Shown one piece after another: positions 83 through 19,576 of a stretch of DNA of 64,000 nucleotides. Position 1 is the stretch's first letter; each line of letters begins with the position of its first letter. Below the pieces are notes generated by a model. That model ran no database searches, was not told where the DNA came from, and worked only from the letters and a program-made list of their open reading frames with translations. Source of the DNA: Owenia fusiformis (lineage: Eukaryota; Annelida; Polychaeta; Sabellida; Oweniidae); the NCBI GenBank assembly GCA_903813345.2, contig CAIIXF020000005.1, forward strand, positions 26,415,375 to 26,479,374, given 5' to 3'. The translations under genes were made by a program, and so were the position numbers.

Positions 83-3000
83 GTGGGCAGTATATTGTGA
101 AAATGACTGTAAAAGCCTCAATGATTGGGTGCTACTTTACACCGCTGGCTTTCCAATTTAAGAAAGTTCAGGATGAGGCTGGGTTCCACATCGTGCGATA
201 TCTGGCTGCTCGCTGTACTAACCCTGTACTGGAATCTCTCAAACCCACTGCACCATATAAGCGACCACCAAGAGTTGCTGTAAAGACCTTTAAACGAGAT
301 GTTGTGGAGGGTGTGCCGTTACCCAAGTAAGTAACGGAAAAGATTATTTGGATCTAGCATGAAATAACAAAATTATATTGGACTGTGATTGAGAGAATTT
401 TACTATATTGATAGTCAAAGTTATCATAATTTCCGTGTAGGATGGGTTCTGAAAGATTGAAGCGTGTCATTGAACTTCAGCAGCATACTATACCGAGGGG
501 TCTTCGCCGTGTGATGAATCGCGGCCTGGAGGAGACCCCACGAATGTCAGCAGAAGATAAACTAGACATGAAAGAGATAAAGTAAGATTCATTAGAATTC
601 ATAAGCCAAAATATTTCAAATTGTGTAGAAGTATGCCCCATAAGGATATGTTTTAAAATGTATCATGTTCTATTGAATGATAATAAAAAACTGTTAAAAA
701 GCTTTTCTATTAGATGGCTTTTATTAACATTAGTTTTCCTAGGATGCATGTTTTTGTAATTCAATTATATTAGAACAATATTGTCCAAATTCCTCAGAGT
801 TTCATTGAATAACTTGAGCCTGAGGGAGAGATCTACCTTTGCCCCTCCCCCTCTTTGCTGATATGCTTCAATTACACGTTACAATTACACATTCTAGGGC
901 CCAGTTAGAGGCTGAGCTAACTATGGACAATTTCCTAGACAAGCTCTGTCACCTGCTACATATAGAGGAGATACAAATGGAGGTGGATATAAGAAAGTAT
1001 GACATGGAAGATGTCTGCATGAGGCGTTGTAAAGCAAACCCTCGTCTTCTTGTACTCAAGGTAAGGCCCACCTGGCCCGGGAAATGACCCTCTCCCACAA
1101 AATTCTTTTATATTTCACATCCTCGCTTTGAGCCATTATACTGTACCTGTCTTGTAATTTTTAGTAAGACTAAATAACTAATAATGCAATAACTATATTT
1201 CAGAAATATTTAAGAGAATCGTCCCTCAATACACTGCAACTGCAAAGTGCATTACATTGTGAAATAAATTAAATTAGAAAGAGAGAAACTTGCAATAACT
1301 CAATATGTCCACGCTTTGATTTATTTTCTAGGTGCCAGGTCTGGCTGAGAATCGTCCCTCGGTGTTGCGTGGAGATCATCTATTCGTCCATATGCAGAAG
1401 GACACTGTGGAATACAAGGGCTATGTGCATGAAGTGATGCTTGATGAGCTGAAGCTCGGCTTTGATAACAGGTGTGTAAATGTATATACCCAGGAACATG
1501 AAAATGAATATTGTGTATGTGGTGTGTCGTAACAAGAATATTCAAAATTAAAATAAAGGCATCACCAACAGCGATTAATGTTTTTTTTTATAATAGTGCA
1601 TATTGTATCTGGCTGTCAAGTTAGGTGAAGATGTTAAGCCAAGAGAATGTGGGTTTGAATTTCTGCATTTTCGTGAGCTCCCTGTGTTTTTTGACGCATG
1701 CATCATCATGTTAATTAATATATAATTTCACATGAAGCTCTGATGTAAAGCAAAATATATATGATAACATATGTATATGTACATATACATGTACCATGCA
1801 TGTATTTTATCTTGTTATTCATCGACTCCTCATTTAATTTTAGACTCCTGAAAAACTTCTTGCCAAACATGAAGTTTGGTGTTCGATTTGTGTTTAACCG
1901 CCTGCCATTGCGGCTGCAACATAGAGCTATACAGTTAGCTGAGGAGTGCTCCCTAGACAAGCTGCTATTCCCTACGTTAGAGACAGCCAGCTCTTGGGGC
2001 ACCATGCAGCCTTCATCAACGAAACTCAGGTAGGATCTAGGATTGCACATGACTGAAATCGAGGGATTGAAAAATTCAATATAAAGAATTGTCCTTATAT
2101 TGAACAACTAACTAGGTTATATAAGATGCCGTTCATTCTTATCTAGTTGATTCACTTGGTCTATGAGGCCTTTTAGCGATTGGCATTTGAATTTGAATCT
2201 ATCATGCTCTTAGGTTGAATGATCGTAAGCTTGAGGACAATCACGAACAATACACAGCTGTACAACATATTGTGGCAGGAAGTTCTCGTCCTGCCCCATA
2301 TGTGGTGTTTGGACCACCAGGAACTGGCAAGACTGTCACTATCGTAGAAGCCATGAAACAGGTAGCCAAAATGTGATAGTATTCAGTGTCGGCCCTAAGG
2401 TCCGGTCCGATGGTCATTACCAGGTTACTTTTGATAAGGACCAGTTGATTTTGTCACTAGGTATAGGAAAAACATCGCAACTGGTCTGTAATGCCATTTT
2501 GACCAGCAGGTTTTAGATCCTTAGGGCCTACACTGATAATATTGTTTGGTATTTTACATTTTACATTACATTAAATACATTCTCTTTTGACATATTGTTA
2601 CAGTGATGGCTGGTATTCTAGGGCTTGTTTGATGGAATTTGCTTGGCATTGCCATTATGTAGTTGAAAACCTATGATTGTATTGTTTTAGATAGTCCAGT
2701 GTTACCCTAACACTCACATCCTGGCATGTGCGCCTAGCAACAGTGCAGCAGATCTGATTACGGAGAGACTCTTAGAACATCTCTCCAAGACACAGGTGTT
2801 CCGCATGAACGCATTCTCACGATCTTGGGCTAGCATACCACAGAAAATCAGGGTAAGATTGAGACCAAACAAAAAATATTAATGAATACATCAGATTTTA
2901 AATTATTTACTCAGTGGTATTTTTCCAACATTTCATTTTGTTTAAATGATTAATTATCGTGGGACATAGTTTTCCATATTTATTTAAATAATTACTGCTT

Positions 3001-5959
3001 GACTCAACTCTTACTTATTGACGTTATGGGACACATCATATTCGTCAAAATGACAGGAATATTATGAATTTTCCACTTCAAAATCATTCAATCACTTTTC
3101 TTCAGAGCTGCTGCAACTATGATAAATACGAAGATCAGTTCTTCTTCCCAGAGAAAGATGAGCTGATGAAGTATCGTGTTGTTGTCTGTACATTGGTGAC
3201 GGCAGGTCGTTTAGCATCTGCCAACTTTCCTCCAGGTCACTTCAGTCATGTGTTTATAGATGAGGCAGGACACGCTATTGAACCAGAGTGTTTGATACCT
3301 GTGGCAGGTAAGTCAGATGTTGACATTTCATTTCGGCTGACTTTTCTTAAAATTTTATTTCATTCAATGCAAAGTTTGTAAAAAAGTTGGGAAGTCGTTC
3401 AATGAAAGATAAACAATAACAGTCCCTATATTTTTTGACAGTTTAAAAAATATTTGTATTTTGTATTATCACTAACATTTACAAAAGCATTTACATGTAC
3501 TGTATTAGAAGTATCCTGTATATTTCAGGGATCCTAGAGTGTGATGTCAAGGTTGCTAATGGAGGCCAACTTGTTTTAGCGGGAGATCCAGAACAACTGG
3601 GTCCCATACTTAGATCTCCTGTCAGCTTGAAATATGGTCTAGGTGTGTACTATACTTTACTGCCACTTGGGTTGATGGAAGAACCATTACCTTTGTGCTG
3701 TCTATTGACCATCATTTATTTAAATTATGGGTTCATGTCATACAATATAAGAAAAGTTGCTGTTCACAAAATTTTCAAGGAATTAACAGTGAAATAATTG
3801 AACAAAGGATAAAATGTATCTGCAGGAAATAAAAATTGAAAGTTGTTCATTTTCTACAGTGGAAATCACTGTAATATCAAAATAAACTTAGGAATGATTT
3901 GAATTGACTTCACAAAGATTTTACCTTTTTACAGAAACATCAATCCTAGAACGCTACATGAAGCAGTGTGAAGTTTATGACAAGGCTGTAAACCCTGGAC
4001 CAGATTTGAAGTCATTCAACCCTAACCTCATCACTAAGCTTGTTCGCAACTATCGCTCACACCCAGCTATTCTACGCATACCAAATGAACTTTTCTATAA
4101 CAGCGAGCTTGAACCTCATGCTGATTTACTTCTCAGGGAATCCCTGTGTAAATGGGAGGGTTTGCCATGTATGGGGTGTCCAATTGTATTCCATGGGGTG
4201 ATAGGGCAAGATATGCGTGAGGAGAGGTCGCCATCATTTTTCAACCCAGAAGAGATTGTGCATGTGATGAAATATGTGGATACTTTATTGGAGGAGAAGA
4301 AAGGCGGGATTAATATTCATCCCAAAGATATTGGCATTATCACACCATACAGGAAGCAGGTAAATACATTGTACTGGAATTCTTGATTATAAATTCGAAG
4401 TGAATGTGCTTTGCCATTTTAGAATGTGAATGGCTTAAACACATTCAACATCAGTTTGGTTGAACAGAAACTATAAAAGTACAATAACATCCATATAATA
4501 GCACTTGTCAATCATTGGATAATTTCACATACTGTCGGTTTCTATAACATTTAAAAAACATCTAATTTTGCTCAATAATCTGGTTACATAATGCTAATTT
4601 TAAAATTATAGGTTCAGCTTATGTTCTATTTATAGGTTCAGAAAATCCAGGGTCTTGTTCGTCAAAAGAGACTTACTGAGATCAAAGTTGGCTCGGTAGA
4701 GGAGTTCCAGGGTCAGGAACGGAAGGTGATCATCATCTCCACTGTCAGAAGCAACCCAGAATACATGTCAATGGATATAGAGTACCAACTAGGCTTTGTG
4801 AAAAATCCAAAGGTTGGCCATACTCAATGTATTGTATTATTAACCCTTGTAGAACTGCACTGTTCATACAAAAAGTGACATTTTATTGACTATAGAGTGT
4901 AGACACACACAAATTTTAATGCAAATGCTAAAAAGTTCACTCAAACCCAGCGGGACTTGCAACTCTTCTATAATACATAAATCCACAAATGATTGTGCTA
5001 GCCAATCAAGATATAACAACCACATTTTAGCAACGTTTTGAAATCTTTAGAATTGCAATGTGAAATGCTGAATGTAAAGTGCAATTATTCTGTTTTGCAG
5101 TTAACTAGCAATTTCTTTTCATTTTCCATTTCTTATTTAGACAAAATGAAACTTAATTTCCTTCATTTTTATGGTTTCAGAGGTTCAATGTGTCGCTGAC
5201 GAGAGCTAAAGCTCTATTGATAGTTATTGGAAACCCTTATGTTCTAAGGCAGGATCCATGCTGGTCCACGTAAGTAAAGACTTCCAGAATACTGTCTAGA
5301 ATAATACCTCTATAAGGAGGCAGTGAAAATAATATCAGTTTGGTATTATTGTTGATGATCAGTATGTTACATGATTTTCAAAATCCTGCTCCGTAATTGT
5401 TTTTGGCTCACATGGCATAATTCATCCACTCATCTCTCCTTATGTCAGTGTCCATAACAAATGGCAGGTGGTGACATTTTGCATGTAAATATCTTGTCAT
5501 CAATGACATGTGCCTGCACTACTACAATTGTACATGTTTTTTGTAATCCAGGTTCTTGAACTACTGTCGTGGCAACGGTGCATACAAAGGCTGTGACTTT
5601 GACAACCTGGAAGATCATTTAGAGGACATCACTCAAAGGTTTAATGCAGTCAGTCTCAGTCAAGGTATAGTTACCCTGAATACAGATGAGTTTAATGGCA
5701 GTTTATATGGAAGAGAATGTAAGATAGGCAGAAAATATAGCAATGTGATTTTTTAACTGCATACAATAAAACCTTTATATTTGAATACCTCTAATCAGCT
5801 CCAGTTGTTAGAGACCTTGAAGTTTGAACACATAGCTTGGTAGCATAAACATGAATAGAGTATTTTTTGAACCCCTTTGCAGAATCAGAAGATGGGGTGG
5901 AAGTCAGTCAGTTGGAACAGCAGGTTGAACCAGAGTGGACGACAACTGAGAAAATCTGA
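83..5959 (+). CDS. MOV10: MOV10-type SF1 RNA helicase, C-terminal ~792 residues (5' exons lie outside the window)
   Basis: Fourteen coding exons join in phase with GT-AG borders: 83-326, 441-581, 898-1060, 1332-1471, 1844-2029, 2214-2361, 2691-2852, 3106-3307, 3529-3642, 3935-4359, 4636-4812, 5181-5269, 5552-5664 and 5883-5959 (TGA). All SF1 helicase motifs are visible: GPPGTGKT (2311-2334), [20 protein letters not shown] (DEAG box from 3259), [29 protein letters not shown] (about 4696-4719) and [16 protein letters not shown]. The DEAG box and the order of motifs fit the MOV10/MOV10L1/Armitage branch of the UPF1-like family. The C-terminal half resembles vertebrate MOV10 more than MOV10L1, as judged from memory. 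Members unwind RNA 5' to 3', act with Argonaute/piRNA complexes in the cytoplasm and restrict retroelements. Human MOV10 is about 1000 residues, so roughly 200 N-terminal residues are missing off the left edge. No frameshift or stop is seen. The exact paralogue is the main uncertainty. Confidence 0.93.
2384..2535. mobile_element. 152-bp hAT-like MITE in a MOV10 intron
   Basis: The ends are inverted copies: CAGTGTCGGCCCTAAGG on the left and CCTTAGGGCCTACACTG on the right. The flanks ATAGTATT (2376-2383) and ATAATATT (2536-2543) match at 7 of 8 bases, which fits an 8-bp target-site duplication. CAGTG-type ends with an 8-bp duplication are typical of the hAT superfamily. It sits 22 bp after the donor site of the exon ending at 2361 and holds no ORF. 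Confidence 0.75.
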
Positions 5960-9239: not shown

Positions 9240-9528
9240 ACCCGGTTTTCAATTTAGTGATAATTCATTTTTGTAACAAGCTATTTGATTCGTCAAATTA
9301 GTCACGTGGGTAATTGATGACGTCGATGGCAACCAAGCATTATTATGCAGGGACAAGAAATAGCAACAAATAATCTCGAACGGTACACAGAAAGTCACTA
9401 TTTGACCATTTTACTGACATATTGTACTAAATAAACTATCTGGATATAAAGTTAAATATATAGTGGATATTATTAACATGTTACAAGGACAATCGGAATA
9501 ACATTTAAGTTTGAATCCCAATGGAATT
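9240..9528 (+). promoter_or_regulatory. Probable promoter and 5' UTR of the DYRK2-type gene
   Basis: Upstream of the start codon lie an E-box CACGTG at 9303-9308 and a CRE-like TGACGTC at 9318-9324. An in-frame TAA at 9499-9501 closes the reading frame upstream, so ATG 9529 is the first in-frame start. The transcription start is not visible. Confidence 0.45.
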
Positions 9529-11193
9529 ATGACAACCCGAGTGAAACAAATGCCTGTTCAACGGACTCGATCGTTGACTGGAAATCCGCCTGGAGAAAAC
9601 ATTTATTCTCACCATACTATAGACAATCCTGCCTCTCACCATTTACCGCCACTGACCAGTCAGACAGTGGGCGGTTCATCGATACATCACGGAAACCAGG
9701 CTGGCGTGAAGGTCCAGCAATTGTATGAACAAGAAAAAATCGAAAATAAAATCCAAAATGGCGACCATTCCTATCATGTTAGTCAGCAGTTGCCCTCTGT
9801 CAGGGCCACATCTAGTGCAGGGAGCCAGGCTAGCAAAGGCAGCTCTGCAAAACGTACTGGTACAATGACACCAGAGTCCGCTATGAAACAGTATATGCAT
9901 AAACTCTCGTCTTTTGAACATCATGAGATTTTTAATTATCCGCATATTTACTTTGTCGGAGCAAACGCAAAGAAACGACAGGGAGTCGTTGGTGGGCCAA
10001 GTAATAACGGATACGATGATGAAAATGGATCCTATGTTCATGTACCTCACGATCATATAGGCTATAGGTACGAAGTTCTCAAAGTGATTGGGAAAGGAAG
10101 CTTTGGACAGGTTGTTAAGGCCTATGATCATAAAACCCACTCGCATATTGCTCTCAAAATGGTTCGCAATGAAAAACGTTTTCATAGGCAAGCCCAAGAA
10201 GAAATTAGGATTTTAGAACATTTGAAAAAGCAAGATAAAGACAATACAATGAACATTATCCATGAATATGAACATTTTACATTCAGAAACCATATATGTA
10301 TCACCTTTGAACTACTTAGCATGAACTTATACGAACTGATCAAGAAAAATAAGTTTCAGGGATTCAGTCTGCAACTCGTGCGCAAATTTGCTCATTCTAT
10401 TTTGCAGTGTTTAGATGCGCTGGCTAAAAACCGCATAATCCATTGTGACTTGAAACCAGAAAATATCTTACTGAAACAACAGGGTAGGAGTGGTATTAAA
10501 GTTATAGACTTTGGCTCAAGTTGTTATGAACACCAGAGAATATACACTTACATCCAATCTCGATTCTACCGAGCTCCTGAGGTGATTATGGGCTCCAAGT
10601 ATGGAATGCCCATAGATATGTGGAGCTTAGGCTGTATCCTGGCGGAATTGCTCACTGGCTATCCCTTGTTCCCTGGGGAGGATGAAGGTGACCAGCTTGC
10701 CACTATAATAGAGGTTCAGGGAATGCCACCCCAGAAGCTGTTAGATAGCTCAAAACGTGCTCGCAACTTCATAAGCTCCAAGGGTTACCCACGTTACTGC
10801 TCTGTTACTACACTGCCAGATGGCAGCACTGTTCTCAATGGGGGAAGATCCAGACGTGGCAAGATGCGTGGTCCACCAGGTTCCAAAGATATGATAACAG
10901 CACTGAAGGGTGCAGATGATCCACTGTTCCTCGATTTTATGCGTCGCTGCTTAGAGTGGGACCCAGCCACTCGTATGACCCCTAGTCAGGCTCTCCGACA
11001 TGCCTGGTTACGCCGTCGTCTCCCTAAACCCCCACCTAACGAGACTGCAGGTAACACTCGTCAACACTCTGCCAAGGGAATAATAACCAAGCTACCTAAT
11101 GGTAGTTCCAAAGGTGGTGAACTCATCACAGAGAAAATGAAACCAGACATCAATACTAGGACTAAATTACCACAGATAGGGTCGACTATGTGA
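9529..11193 (+). CDS. DYRK2: Dual-specificity tyrosine-regulated kinase, DYRK2 type (554 aa, one exon)
   Basis: This is a single uninterrupted frame of 554 residues. The ATG at 9529 is chosen because an in-frame TAA lies 30 bp upstream with no other ATG between. The conserved [16 protein letters not shown] block (about 114-135) and the DYRK homology box (about 161-178, [10 protein letters not shown]) precede the kinase domain. Motifs visible are GKGSFGQV (188-195), the ALK lysine (K210), HCDLKPEN (305-312), DFG (327-329), the YTY activation-loop motif (339-341), APE (349-351) and the CMGC insert near [10 protein letters not shown]. Class 2 DYRKs autophosphorylate the second tyrosine of YTY during synthesis, then phosphorylate serine/threonine substrates in p53, Hedgehog and cell-cycle pathways. 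The close match over the whole domain and the LPQ-type tail favour DYRK2 over DYRK3 or DYRK4. All catalytic residues are intact. Confidence 0.95.
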
Positions 11194-16173: not shown

Positions 16174-16364
16174 TTTACTGACATCTACTATTCTTGTCAC
16201 ATATTAGACATGCGATAGTTTAGGGAAACTTAGGCGACTAGATTATGTCTCCCAGGTCCCCACACAGAGACCTCTCACTACTTGTTCACAGACTGCATGA
16301 ACAATGCGTGTACATAACTGGTGATGTCTCAAGACATTTTCTAAGTCATCTCCCCAAGAACCAT
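16174..16364 (+). repeat. Left 191-bp direct repeat of the 16-18 kb element
   Basis: This runs from TTTACTGACAT to AAGAACCAT and matches 17690-17880 with about four mismatches (near 98% identity). The offset is 1516 bp. It contains an ATG opening a short frame that leaves the repeat, but the frame looks incidental. Confidence 0.92.
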
Positions 16365-16413
16365 TACAGTACCACACTGACAACACAACAACAACAACAA
16401 CCTAAACCTCAAC

Positions 16414-17163
16414 ATGAGCTCTGCCAAAGACCTATCAATAGGCCAAATGATTGCCAACGCAAACGACACACAGGCGTCTATTTGCAGTGGAAAATTCAAC
16501 TCCCATAACTCTATGGAGATGAATGACAGCAGGGACACCATTCCCGACTCAGAAGTACCAGCAAACAGCGCTGTCTTCAACAAACAAGCCTCAAAGCAAG
16601 CAACAACAAGCAGCCCTAAAGGCAAATACCATACCAAGCCGGCCTCTACCTTCACAATAAACAACCCCTCATACTCTATACCACGCAAACCGACCCTCAA
16701 CATCATAGACGCGATGGGCCTAGGCCAACCTACAAACATCGGTAACCACACCAACTCCACACGCCAAGCAGACCCAGCTCTACTTACCCGTTTGAGAACA
16801 TCAATACACTGGGAAGCCAGACATGATGGCGTCCTTAAAAGCCTTAACAACTGCCCGGGAGGCATCCCAAGAGGCCTCATACCAAATATCAAATGTGGCG
16901 CCCCTGAAAAGGAAACTTCCGACATTGAAAAAGCGTTCGAAGTAATCCTACATCACTGCAGTGACCAGCTTACAGAAGCCACAACACTGCATAGTCAAAA
17001 CAGACTAGACTATCACAGACAACAAACCACAGCAACCATCCAAAAACTAGCCAAAACCATCGGCCTTGTGGAAGCAGACAAACTGGCAGAACAATACAAA
17101 CGTGAGGCCTTCAAACCAAAAAGAAGGGAAGCAAGCACAAAACCCCGTGGGAAAAGACAGTAG
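16414..17163 (+). CDS. 249-aa basic protein of the 16-18 kb element, unrecognised
   Basis: I do not recognise the family. The ATG at 16414 follows a CAA-repeat leader, and the frame ends at TAG 17161-17163. The first 90 residues are polar and rich in Ser, Thr, Asn and Lys, so probably disordered. Residues 120-160 include the block NNCPGGIPRGLIPNIKCG. Residues 166-232 look helical and possibly coiled-coil. The C-terminus (228-249) is very basic (PKRREASTKPRGKRQ), which suggests nucleic-acid binding. Codon use is A/C-rich, unlike the host genes in the window, and the same bias continues outside the ORF, so it belongs to the element as a whole. The immediate downstream histone-type stem-loop suggests a non-polyadenylated mRNA. 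A nucleocapsid-like or structural role is possible but not shown. Confidence 0.6.
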   Translation: MSSAKDLSIGQMIANANDTQASICSGKFNSHNSMEMNDSRDTIPDSEVPANSAVFNKQASKQATTSSPKGKYHTKPASTFTINNPSYSIPRKPTLNIIDAMGLGQPTNIGNHTNSTRQADPALLTRLRTSIHWEARHDGVLKSLNNCPGGIPRGLIPNIKCGAPEKETSDIEKAFEVILHHCSDQLTEATTLHSQNRLDYHRQQTTATIQKLAKTIGLVEADKLAEQYKREAFKPKRREASTKPRGKRQ

Positions 17164-17192
17164 AACAAAACTACTTTAAAAAATACAACCCC

Positions 17193-17208
17193 GGCCCTTC
17201 TCAGGGCC
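17193..17208 (+). terminator. Histone-mRNA-type 3' stem-loop after the element ORF
   Basis: GGCCCT-TCTC-AGGGCC is a 6-bp stem with a 4-nt pyrimidine loop, followed directly by ACCA. This fits the metazoan replication-dependent histone consensus (GGYYYU, four-base UHUH-type loop, ARRRCC, then ACCA). A purine stretch AAAAGAG at about 17222-17228, some 14 nt downstream, resembles the U7 snRNA target (histone downstream element). The stop codon is 30 nt upstream, a normal distance for histone genes. Confidence 0.7.
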
Positions 17209-17500
17209 ACCAATCTCTACCAAAAGAGCAATTTAACATTTATGAATTAAAAAAGTATGAATGTGTATAACGTATGAGATGTATGAACGTGTATGGAAAC
17301 CACCAAACATGTTAACCCGAACCTATATCAACCCCCTAGAACTAATAAAACAGACCTTTGTATCACAAACTTTAAAACCAAACAACACCAGTGCCAACCA
17401 AAACACACCAAATGTTTACAATTCAAACCTGCAAACCATTGCCCGTACTTCGGAACACACACCCGTGTATACACTAACATTCCCCCTCCCCATTCCCCAA

Positions 17501-17614
17501 GCCGCTGATGAAGAACACATCATGGACTACCACCCATGAGTTCGAAACATCTTGTGCTCTTATTATGACACACATATAAGAGAGATGGTCCACTACAGGA
17601 CCGGGATGTCCGGC
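17501..17614 (+). ncRNA. Hammerhead self-cleaving ribozyme motif
   Basis: All core parts are present and in order. Stem I is GCCG (17501-17504) with CGGC (17611-17614). The core is CTGATGA (17505-17511). Stem II is GAAC (17513-17516) with GTTC (17540-17543), extended by CATGG (17521-17525) and CCATG (17534-17538). GAAA follows at 17544-17547. Stem III is CATC (17548-17551) with GATG (17605-17608), and A17547 pairs with T17609. The predicted cleavage is after GTC (17608-17610). Stem III is capped by two further hairpins: CTCTTAT/ATAAGAG (17557-17563/17576-17582) and GGTCC/GGACC (17587-17591/17598-17602). One extra A (17512) lies between the core and stem II. Activity is predicted, not shown. 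Confidence 0.75.
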
Positions 17615-17689
17615 CGCCCTCACATAAATAACAAAAAACAAAACAATATTATTTGTTGGGTAAGATACGAACAATATCTTACGCCATTT

Positions 17690-17880
17690 TTTACTGACAT
17701 ATACTATTCTTGTCACATATTAGACATGCGATAGTTTAGGGAAACTTAGGCGACTAGATTATGTCTCCCAGGTCCCCACACAGAGACCTCTCACCACTTG
17801 TTCACAGACTGCATGAACAATGCGTGTACATAACTGGTGATGTCTTAAGACATTTTCTAAGTCATCTCCCCAAGAATCAT
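17690..17880 (+). repeat. Right 191-bp direct repeat of the 16-18 kb element
   Basis: This is the second copy of 16174-16364, ending AAGAATCAT. It starts 76 nt after the hammerhead. The hammerhead is not found upstream of the left copy, so the similarity is confined to these 191 bp. Confidence 0.92.
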
Positions 17881-18961: not shown

Positions 18962-19576
18962 CTGGTCAACTCGTACCCAAGACAAGTCGTACCCAAGACA
19001 ACTCGTACCCAAGACAACTCGTACCCAAGTATAAATTCTTTTTTTAAATCAAGCATTGGACTGGGAATGTGAATAGATATACATATTACAATTGTAACAT
19101 ACTGTTCAGAATAGTTTAAAGTTTGAAGAAGAATTTTTGGAAGAAATTGATTTAATTTTGTGACATTTTGAGCTGAGTGTCAATTTATATTGACTATTAT
19201 TTTATATTGGTCACAGATTCAGGATGTTCGAGTGAAGAGACAAATGTTTATAATCATTTTTCAAATGTTTATGAGTGTTTGGAACAAGTGTCAGATCTAA
19301 TGTTGTAATTATATTTATTTATATATATGTTTGACAGAAAAATGTTGAAAACAAGCGCTTCAAGCACTTCTTTTATTTAATAAAAAATGCTTAACTGATC
19401 CATTGAGAAAAAATGTCGTCTAAATTCAAAAAAAATATTGAGGCTTATTTGATTCACATTATAACATGAAAGCATTACAAACTCAATTTTTTCCCTAATA
19501 TGCACCCATAATACTGAAAATAAGCTTGGGTACGAGTTGTCTTGGGTACGAGTTGTCTTGGGTACGAGTTGACTAG
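18962..19576. mobile_element. 615-bp foldback-like element, TIRs of 16-bp tandem units
   Basis: The left end carries about four tandem copies of AACTCGTACCCAAGAC (18968-19029). The right end carries about three copies in inverted orientation (19525-19573). The termini are CTGGTCAAC and GTTGACTAG. The flanks GAAGGTAA (18954-18961) and GAAGCTAA (19577-19584) give an 8-bp target-site duplication with one mismatch. The interior is AT-rich without an ORF. Tandem repeats inside inverted ends are the hallmark of foldback elements, and an 8-bp duplication fits hAT-type transposition. Confidence 0.82.

Follow-up and report, generated by a model that had tools for sequence, protein, structure and literature searches.

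What kind of genetic element carries, on one strand and within 1.7 kb, two direct repeats, an open reading frame, a histone-type mRNA 3′ end and a hammerhead motif? These parts were named in a preliminary description of a 64-kb stretch of DNA (hereafter, the window), which belongs to a genome of 498 Mb in 525 contigs, and all of them are present on a single strand in the order given there (Table 1), including a CAA-rich leader and a 249-codon ORF for a basic protein of pI 9.5 (hereafter, ORF2). The segment from 16174 to 17878 is an RT-less, non-autonomous insertion of a Penelope-like element (PLE). It overlaps neither of the long ORFs nearby, of which the one at 9511-11193 looks like a DYRK-type kinase and the one at 3904-4386 like a helicase. 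Elsewhere in the window, a 16-bp unit (CAACTCGTACCCAAGA) forms a short tandem repeat at 18967-19029.

Table 1. Parts of the PLE insertion, in window coordinates.
Feature	Position	Strand	Remarks
5′ pLTR, truncated	16174-16362	+	Without the first 79 nt of the unit; 3′ end abuts the ORF transcript start
ORF2 transcript 5′ leader	16363-16413	+	ATTACAG..., then CAA repeats; begins 2 nt past the presumed start A
ORF2, 249 codons, basic	16414-17163	+	dN/dS 0.13; C-terminal half predicted helical (low confidence)
Histone-type 3′ stem-loop, GGCCCT-TCTC-AGGGCC, then ACCA	17193-17208	+	GGCCCTTCTCAGGGCC; Rfam Histone3
Histone downstream element, AAAAGAG	17222-17228	+	+13 after the stem, like host genes
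ATGAAT motif	17242-17247	+	Common to 14/14 host stem-loop loci read
Hammerhead motif, type-I-like, extended helix III	17501-17614	+	Predicted cleavage 17610/17611
3′ pLTR, complete	17611-17878	+	From the predicted cleavage site to the element 3′ end (AAGAATC)

The direct repeats (16174-16364 and 17690-17880) differ at 4 of 191 positions, in agreement with the identity of about 98% first reported, and they represent the 3′ part of a longer unit, the pseudo-LTR (pLTR), that is complete only in the downstream copy. This identity had been read as the sign of a young element. The figure stands, but as a measure of age it is imprecise, since different RNA templates may have given rise to the two pLTRs.

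ORF2 had been considered an orphan. Among the 43 protein matches listed for the genome, however, 13 (including the window) span the full query without stops, and ORF2 and the 191-bp repeat recover the same companion loci (numbered with the prefix L; contigs carry the prefix C). On contig C518, the two recur head-to-tail with a period of 6301-6304 bp, giving 8 ORF copies, and further copies reside on C420 and C1. One unit (L001), read whole, opens with a pLTR and a non-coding, A+C-rich segment that contains internal repeats. These are followed by a 634-codon RT ORF, a TATAAATA box, ORF2, the stem-loop, the hammerhead and the next pLTR. The 634-residue product matches Pfam RVT_1 (E = 6e-13) and no PDB sequence; this RT is absent from the window copy. 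The RT-bearing partner and the head-to-tail copies that the preliminary description had suggested looking for are thus found in these full-length 6.3-kb units, and the 1.7-kb piece, which it had viewed as a separate kind of element, is instead an RT-less derivative of this 6.3-kb PLE. Its view of a mobile element with kinship to PLEs, in which the ORF, stem-loop and hammerhead belong together, is borne out: the order ORF, stem-loop and intact hammerhead core recurs at 6 of the 16 other ORF-bearing loci read (L001, L002, L004, L014, L019 and L021), with the hammerhead residing about 2 kb past the stem-loop in L014 and L019 and with a damaged stem in L021.

Three RT proteins encoded elsewhere in this genome end in a GIY-YIG domain (L028, L030 and L031), and the parent RT aligns with them along its whole length (26-32% identity). 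In Pfam searches the GIY-YIG domain of L031 is over the cut-off and that of L030 just under it; the domain of L028 is not reported, and we assign it because the last 160 residues are 55% identical to those of L031. We presume that these RTs are of PLE type from the combination of RT and GIY-YIG domains and from sequence motifs. No GIY-YIG domain was detected in the parent unit (best E 6.7), with the three GIY-YIG sequences serving as queries that find one another at E values of 1e-5 to 1e-57. Eleven full-length open RT copies each lie beside a full-length open ORF2; the units are near-identical (100% identity of the RT frames after rounding) and are not independent. The small contigs that hold the tandem arrays have round lengths (50,000 and 14,000), and the arrays could in part be a product of assembly.

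Two other observations concern these units and their RTs. Copies are inverted head-to-head in L004 on C1, and the orientation of the array switches near 11 kb of C518, reflecting either biology or assembly. In addition, at least 12 stop-free places in the genome (for example, C1:30191863, C2:35458282 and C9:7690511) have open frames of 112-161 codons whose similarity to the PLE RT is confined to roughly its first 100 residues, and two more contain stops. These frames may represent a small gene in its own right, carried by another PLE derivative.

How did a copy without RT arise? In L001, L002, L004, L014 and L021, a TATA-type box precedes ORF2 and the A of TCATA falls at position 31, and we placed the presumed transcript start from the boxes of L001, L002 and L004. 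With this A as +1, the ORF2 portion begins at +3 in the window, at +3 in L006 and at +1 in L013 (aligned by eye), and the leader start of the window is therefore identical in L006 and equivalent in L013. A pLTR is joined directly upstream of this start in both the window and L013, which belong to subfamilies that are 32% identical in protein, and L006 begins at the ORF2 start with no upstream pLTR. Because two copies from such distant subfamilies join a pLTR directly to the predicted start, the RT-less form probably arises by copying of an ORF2 transcript and a jump to a second pLTR. A different origin, in which a full unit simply lost its interior by deletion between short repeats, would fit a junction that lies in a short stretch where CA is common to both sides. 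Yet L006 has the same start with no pLTR and L013 has the equivalent start with one, and it is improbable that three deletions would all stop within 2 nt of a single predicted start; we regard simple deletion as unlikely, while giving it more weight than the other alternatives considered below. Splicing was also entertained as the origin of the pLTR-ORF2 junction and was rejected, as the intron would not end in AG.

The window copy diverges from its parent unevenly. Relative to the C518 copies, the pLTR, hammerhead and leader are 96-98% identical (2% divergence for the pLTR), and the 3′ UTR differs by 10%, yet synonymous divergence within ORF2 reaches 0.36. Synonymous divergence that so exceeds non-coding divergence means that either the window copy is a mosaic or its non-coding parts are constrained. 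Likewise, the hammerheads of L021 and the window are 100% identical and their ORFs 91%. Template switching among copies would yield such mosaics. No target-site duplication of at least 4 bp was seen at seven insertions (window, L003, L005, L006, L058, L059 and L060; the ends of L003, L005, L006, L058 and L060 were read by eye).

The stem-loop, called histone-like in the preliminary description, is the only Rfam match over its cut-off within the 64-kb window (Histone3, 34.5 bits versus a cut-off of 34). Four other loci score 35-37 bits (L014, L016, L017 and L019), and six miss the gathering score (L001, L002, L004, L013, L021 and L022, which include the C518, C420 and C1 copies). Because the general model is borderline for these sequences, we built a covariance model, R1, from 12 host stem-loop loci only. 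These come from 14 host loci read among 74 matches listed (75 of 98,227 candidates scored), with two dispersed-repeat loci left out. R1 recognizes the window copy with 59.9 bits (E = 1.4e-10). Over 201 kb it yields 15 matches at E values of 5.5e-8 or lower, and the next two are at 0.79 and 0.92. The signal is present in 10 of the 16 other ORF-bearing loci (L001, L002, L004, L013, L014, L016, L017, L019, L021 and L022), among which L021 is decayed, with stops in its ORF and the damaged stem mentioned above; R1 also finds the dispersed-repeat loci L026 and L027. Six ORF-bearing loci show no R1 signal: deletions run through the site in L006 and L015, and unrelated sequence follows the ORF in L018, L023, L024 and L025.

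The resemblance to the 3′ ends of host replication-dependent histone genes extends to a 6-bp stem, a 4-nt loop, the ACC that follows, AAAAGAG at +13 and ATGAAT. Loops in the PLE copies read UCUC, UCUU, UUUC or UUUA, with U at positions 1 and 3. The downstream element resides at +13 in all eight PLE copies measured, even where synonymous sites are saturated, and at +12 or +13 in 14/14 host loci, although L045 reads AAAAGAT. ATGAAT is found at +21 to +34 in all 14 host loci and in 5/8 PLE copies. TATA-type boxes precede several host stem-loop genes as well. Judged by its sequence, the stem-loop is a match to the host histone signal and no look-alike, and it differs from host histone genes in following an unrelated protein and in residing inside a retroelement. 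The host has an SLBP gene; a search for U7 snRNA gave no match in the genome and likewise none in the controls.

Replication-dependent histone genes are generally considered to be nearly the only genes with 3′ ends of the histone type. Four of the 14 host loci encode linker histones (Pfam E of 3.5e-28 or lower) and three (L045, L049 and L050) have no notable ORF before the stem-loop. At the remaining seven (L041, L044, L046, L047, L048, L051 and L052), the stem-loop and downstream element follow non-histone ORFs of 92-148 amino acids, so that use of the histone 3′ end by this host seems to extend to a broader set of genes. Some of the host stem-loop matches are clustered in the genome. A dispersed 4.6-kb repeat (L026 3038-7633, and L027) also carries a histone-type stem-loop, scoring 70.5 bits with R1, on the strand opposite an N-terminal fragment of a PLE RT, and the same 3′ end is found in L049 (C12:12147067) and L045 (C5:21461514).

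ORF2 is under purifying selection. Between the window and C518, dN is 0.047 and dS 0.364 (dN/dS 0.13), and codons 125-186 hold 15 synonymous changes and 1 non-synonymous change; dS is 1.46 between the window and L013, and it exceeds the range of the formula (saturation) for L014. Distant relatives (31-44% identity) keep a block of the form GIPxGLxPxIxC..PEK or PDK...HSQ, and both of those that reach the N-terminus also keep T(I/V)PDS. Searches of Pfam, NCBIfam and PDB sequences gave no credible family for ORF2. The best Pfam values for the eight ORF2 sequences of our alignment A1 were 0.009, 0.02 and 0.13, each for one member and for unrelated families (A1 omits L004, L006, L016, L017, L019, L021 and L023-L025, mostly because of stops or frameshifts). 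An AlphaFold2 model has a mean pLDDT of 55, with helices at 121-145, 165-216 and 218-232 and an N-terminal half predicted to be disordered, and no PDB fold matches it at E of 0.001 or lower. Given this poor model and the lack of a fold match, we claim no function for ORF2 from structure. A search of viral contigs gave 66 pattern matches, none of which was confirmed.

ORF2, its promoter and its 3′ end could represent a host stem-loop gene that was captured as a passenger and plays no role in transposition. Rotifer PLEs are reported to hold host genes between pLTRs in the available part of one account (PMC3846280), ORF2 forms a complete gene cassette, and small non-histone host ORFs share its 3′ end. 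Moreover, at six ORF-bearing loci (L015, L016, L018, L023, L024 and L025), neither a pLTR nor a hammerhead match was seen within the 3.5-6 kb of sequence covered; none of the six has an intact full-length ORF2 frame. A passenger, however, need not accompany 11 of 11 full-length RT copies, nor adjoin the pLTR or hammerhead in subfamilies of 32-34% identity (L013 and L014), nor be maintained by purifying selection. In addition, profile comparison, with small alignments, finds no similarity between ORF2 and the host stem-loop protein family. We therefore consider a mere passenger improbable, and somewhat more so than the deletion discussed above.

Hairpins near the 3′ end are common in retroelements, and so the stem-loop might be a binding or packaging hairpin for the element's own RT, with a convergent likeness to histone genes and no histone-type processing. 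The fact that copies run past the stem-loop, such that RNAs ignoring it are the templates, agrees with this possibility. Three features speak against it. First, the match to the host-trained R1 model includes an unstructured downstream element at a fixed distance, and neither this element nor the ATGAAT shared by most PLE copies is needed for a hairpin. Second, the three GIY-YIG PLE loci (L028, L030 and L031) have no R1 signal. Third, by inspection, ORF2 has its own TATA-type box, as do several of the host stem-loop genes. We judge a private hairpin to be less probable still than a captured passenger.

The hammerhead motif was likewise correctly recognized in the preliminary description. Its core reads CTGATGA...GAAA...GATGTC, with cleavage predicted after GATGTC, although Rfam hammerhead models report nothing at the gathering score in the window, nor at E of 5 or lower in a 751-nt stretch. 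We aligned 13 hammerhead rows, 11 of them distinct (alignment A2), omitting the near-identical L033, L034, L035, one L020 copy, L002 and L004. The window and 11 other rows have CUGAUGA, GAAA, UH and three helices; in L006, the 5′ part is missing and GAAA is altered. All rows except L006 were selected for the exact core, and the invariance of the core is therefore no independent evidence. In the helices, 98.8% of 322 cells are paired and ten cells in three pairs have changed on both sides. The covariation score and the numbers of paired and doubly changed cells are above all 500 shuffles; the number of pairs changed on both sides (3, reached by 182/500) and that of further pair types (493/500) fall within the shuffle range. 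Helix III is composed of four base pairs and two conserved hairpins, and the double changes reside in these two hairpins, with none in the core stems. The stability of the fold corresponds to a z of -3.5.

Boundaries of other insertions also bear on the hammerhead. Solo pLTRs with different flanks start at positions equivalent to 17611 (L005), 17613 (L058), 17614 (L060), 17615 (L003) and 17617 (L059), such that 5 of 10 solo pLTR loci begin 0-6 nt from the predicted cleavage site. The other five (L053-L057), which represent one derived repeat, begin at 17631-17635, off the cleavage site. In the partial tandem of L002, AAGAAT(C) is joined to the predicted cleavage product. Insertion boundaries at the predicted site give independent, though indirect, genomic support for a function of the PLE hammerhead. 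For the PLE PAc of Anolis, however, insertion in vitro did not require hammerhead cleavage, and the hammerhead site coincided with neither the starts nor the ends of reads (PMC11167929); this calls for caution about its role here. Separately, a hammerhead-like sequence of the form CTGATGA...GTTCGAAAC, whose core looks incomplete, occurs in L020 at 3285 (+), 5569 (-) and 8636 (-), and the same sequence with CTGATTGA occurs in L001 at about 410-480 (-); these lie immediately past the downstream end of the pLTR, on the other strand. That the stem-loop and ribozyme are chance matches in a segmental duplication, as the barely sufficient Rfam score of the former might have suggested, is contradicted by signals conserved across diverged copies, the A2 shuffles, R1, the downstream element and the solo pLTR starts, and we give it almost no credence.

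Where does this element belong? Like canonical PLEs (Penelope/Poseidon and PAc of Anolis), the parent unit has a PLE-type RT, pLTRs, tandem or partial-tandem units and a hammerhead at the junction, and copy ends are set by RT starts inside tandem RNA (PMC11167929). It differs from them in three respects: we could find no GIY-YIG endonuclease, a second ORF is preceded by a promoter-like sequence of its own, and there is a 3′ end of the histone type. Since endonuclease-deficient PLEs exist, the missing GIY-YIG domain counts only against the canonical EN+ clades. The hammerheads of PLEs are described, in the available portions of two reports, as type I motifs of minimal form that have no known role (PMC7761336, PMC7229834), without helix III or loop contacts according to the first; helix III here is, by comparison, long and structured. 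The rotifer endonuclease-deficient Athena elements and Terminons are similar in having an RT without GIY-YIG, extra ORFs and hammerheads, as far as the accessible text of two papers tells (PMC6431247, PMC5408684). The extra ORFs described in that text are of DEDDy, GDSL, coiled-coil and transmembrane types, none of which ORF2 matches in Pfam. Association with telomeric repeats of the TTAGGG type, as in Athena and Terminons, is also not seen, as no TTAGGG/CCCTAA 12-mers (one substitution allowed) occur in the window, L001, L002 or L004. Finally, the metazoan retrozymes, which are similarly non-autonomous, hammerhead-bearing repeats thought to be mobilized by PLEs, are short and non-coding and have circular RNAs of about 170-400 nt in the part of the source at hand (PMC7229834); the window copy instead has two pLTRs and an ORF under selection. 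The word 'histone' does not occur in PMC6431247, PMC5408684, PMC3846280, PMC7229834 or PMC7761336, and no histone-type mRNA end is mentioned in the text consulted. We file the insertion as an RT-less derivative of an apparently endonuclease-lacking PLE that carries a new kind of gene cassette.

Taken together, these observations are best explained by an apparently endonuclease-lacking PLE that makes a short S-phase ORF2 mRNA through the histone pathway and whose RT-less copy came from readthrough and a jump, a reading that we consider probable. A genome-length RNA would span head-to-tail units and encode the RT, and the hammerhead would cleave it wherever a pLTR begins. A second RNA, begun at the internal TATA promoter before ORF2, would be a short mRNA that encodes a basic, helical protein and receives its poly(A)-less 3′ end from the host histone pathway through SLBP on the stem-loop and U7-type pairing to AAAAGAG. 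If so, the ORF2 protein would be made mainly in S phase. Transcripts that start at ORF2 and read through the stem-loop into the pLTR would be the templates for reverse transcription; complete processing at the stem-loop would bar templates from the pLTR, and processing is therefore expected to be partial or timed. A jump of the RT from the transcript 5′ end to another pLTR would then give the order pLTR, ORF2, stem-loop, hammerhead and pLTR seen in the window, and L006 would have followed the same route minus the jump. The ORF2 protein itself may be an RNA-binding or assembly partner of the RT. The preliminary description had already proposed a short mRNA ending at the stem-loop beside a longer RNA trimmed by the ribozyme. 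Two such RNAs are plausible, but the ribozyme would not trim the end of this insertion, because it would cut at the 5′ boundary of the pLTR, where the next unit begins.

A bolder and quite tentative extension, which we rate no higher than the deletion origin, is that an element without an endonuclease took over the histone pathway such that its accessory protein is made only in S phase, when free 3′ ends exposed at replication forks or in repair gaps could serve its RT as primers. The absence of target-site duplications would be expected under this reading, because there would be no staggered nuclease cut.

Among the papers listed by searches of one open-access library with few subscription papers, none reports a transposable element with a histone-type mRNA end, judging by titles and the opening lines of abstracts. 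We also know of no other such element. The presence of the stem-loop on the second gene suggests, from sequence features, that ORF2 expression is timed to DNA replication. If true, this would be the first transposable element of its kind known to us, and the histone-type signal would add a third route of 3′-end formation to those provided within the element by the ribozyme and by the RT start site. A selfish element with a histone-type end would show a direct way of coupling transposition to S phase, and altering a single stem-loop would then make it possible to test whether retrotransposition depends on the cell cycle.
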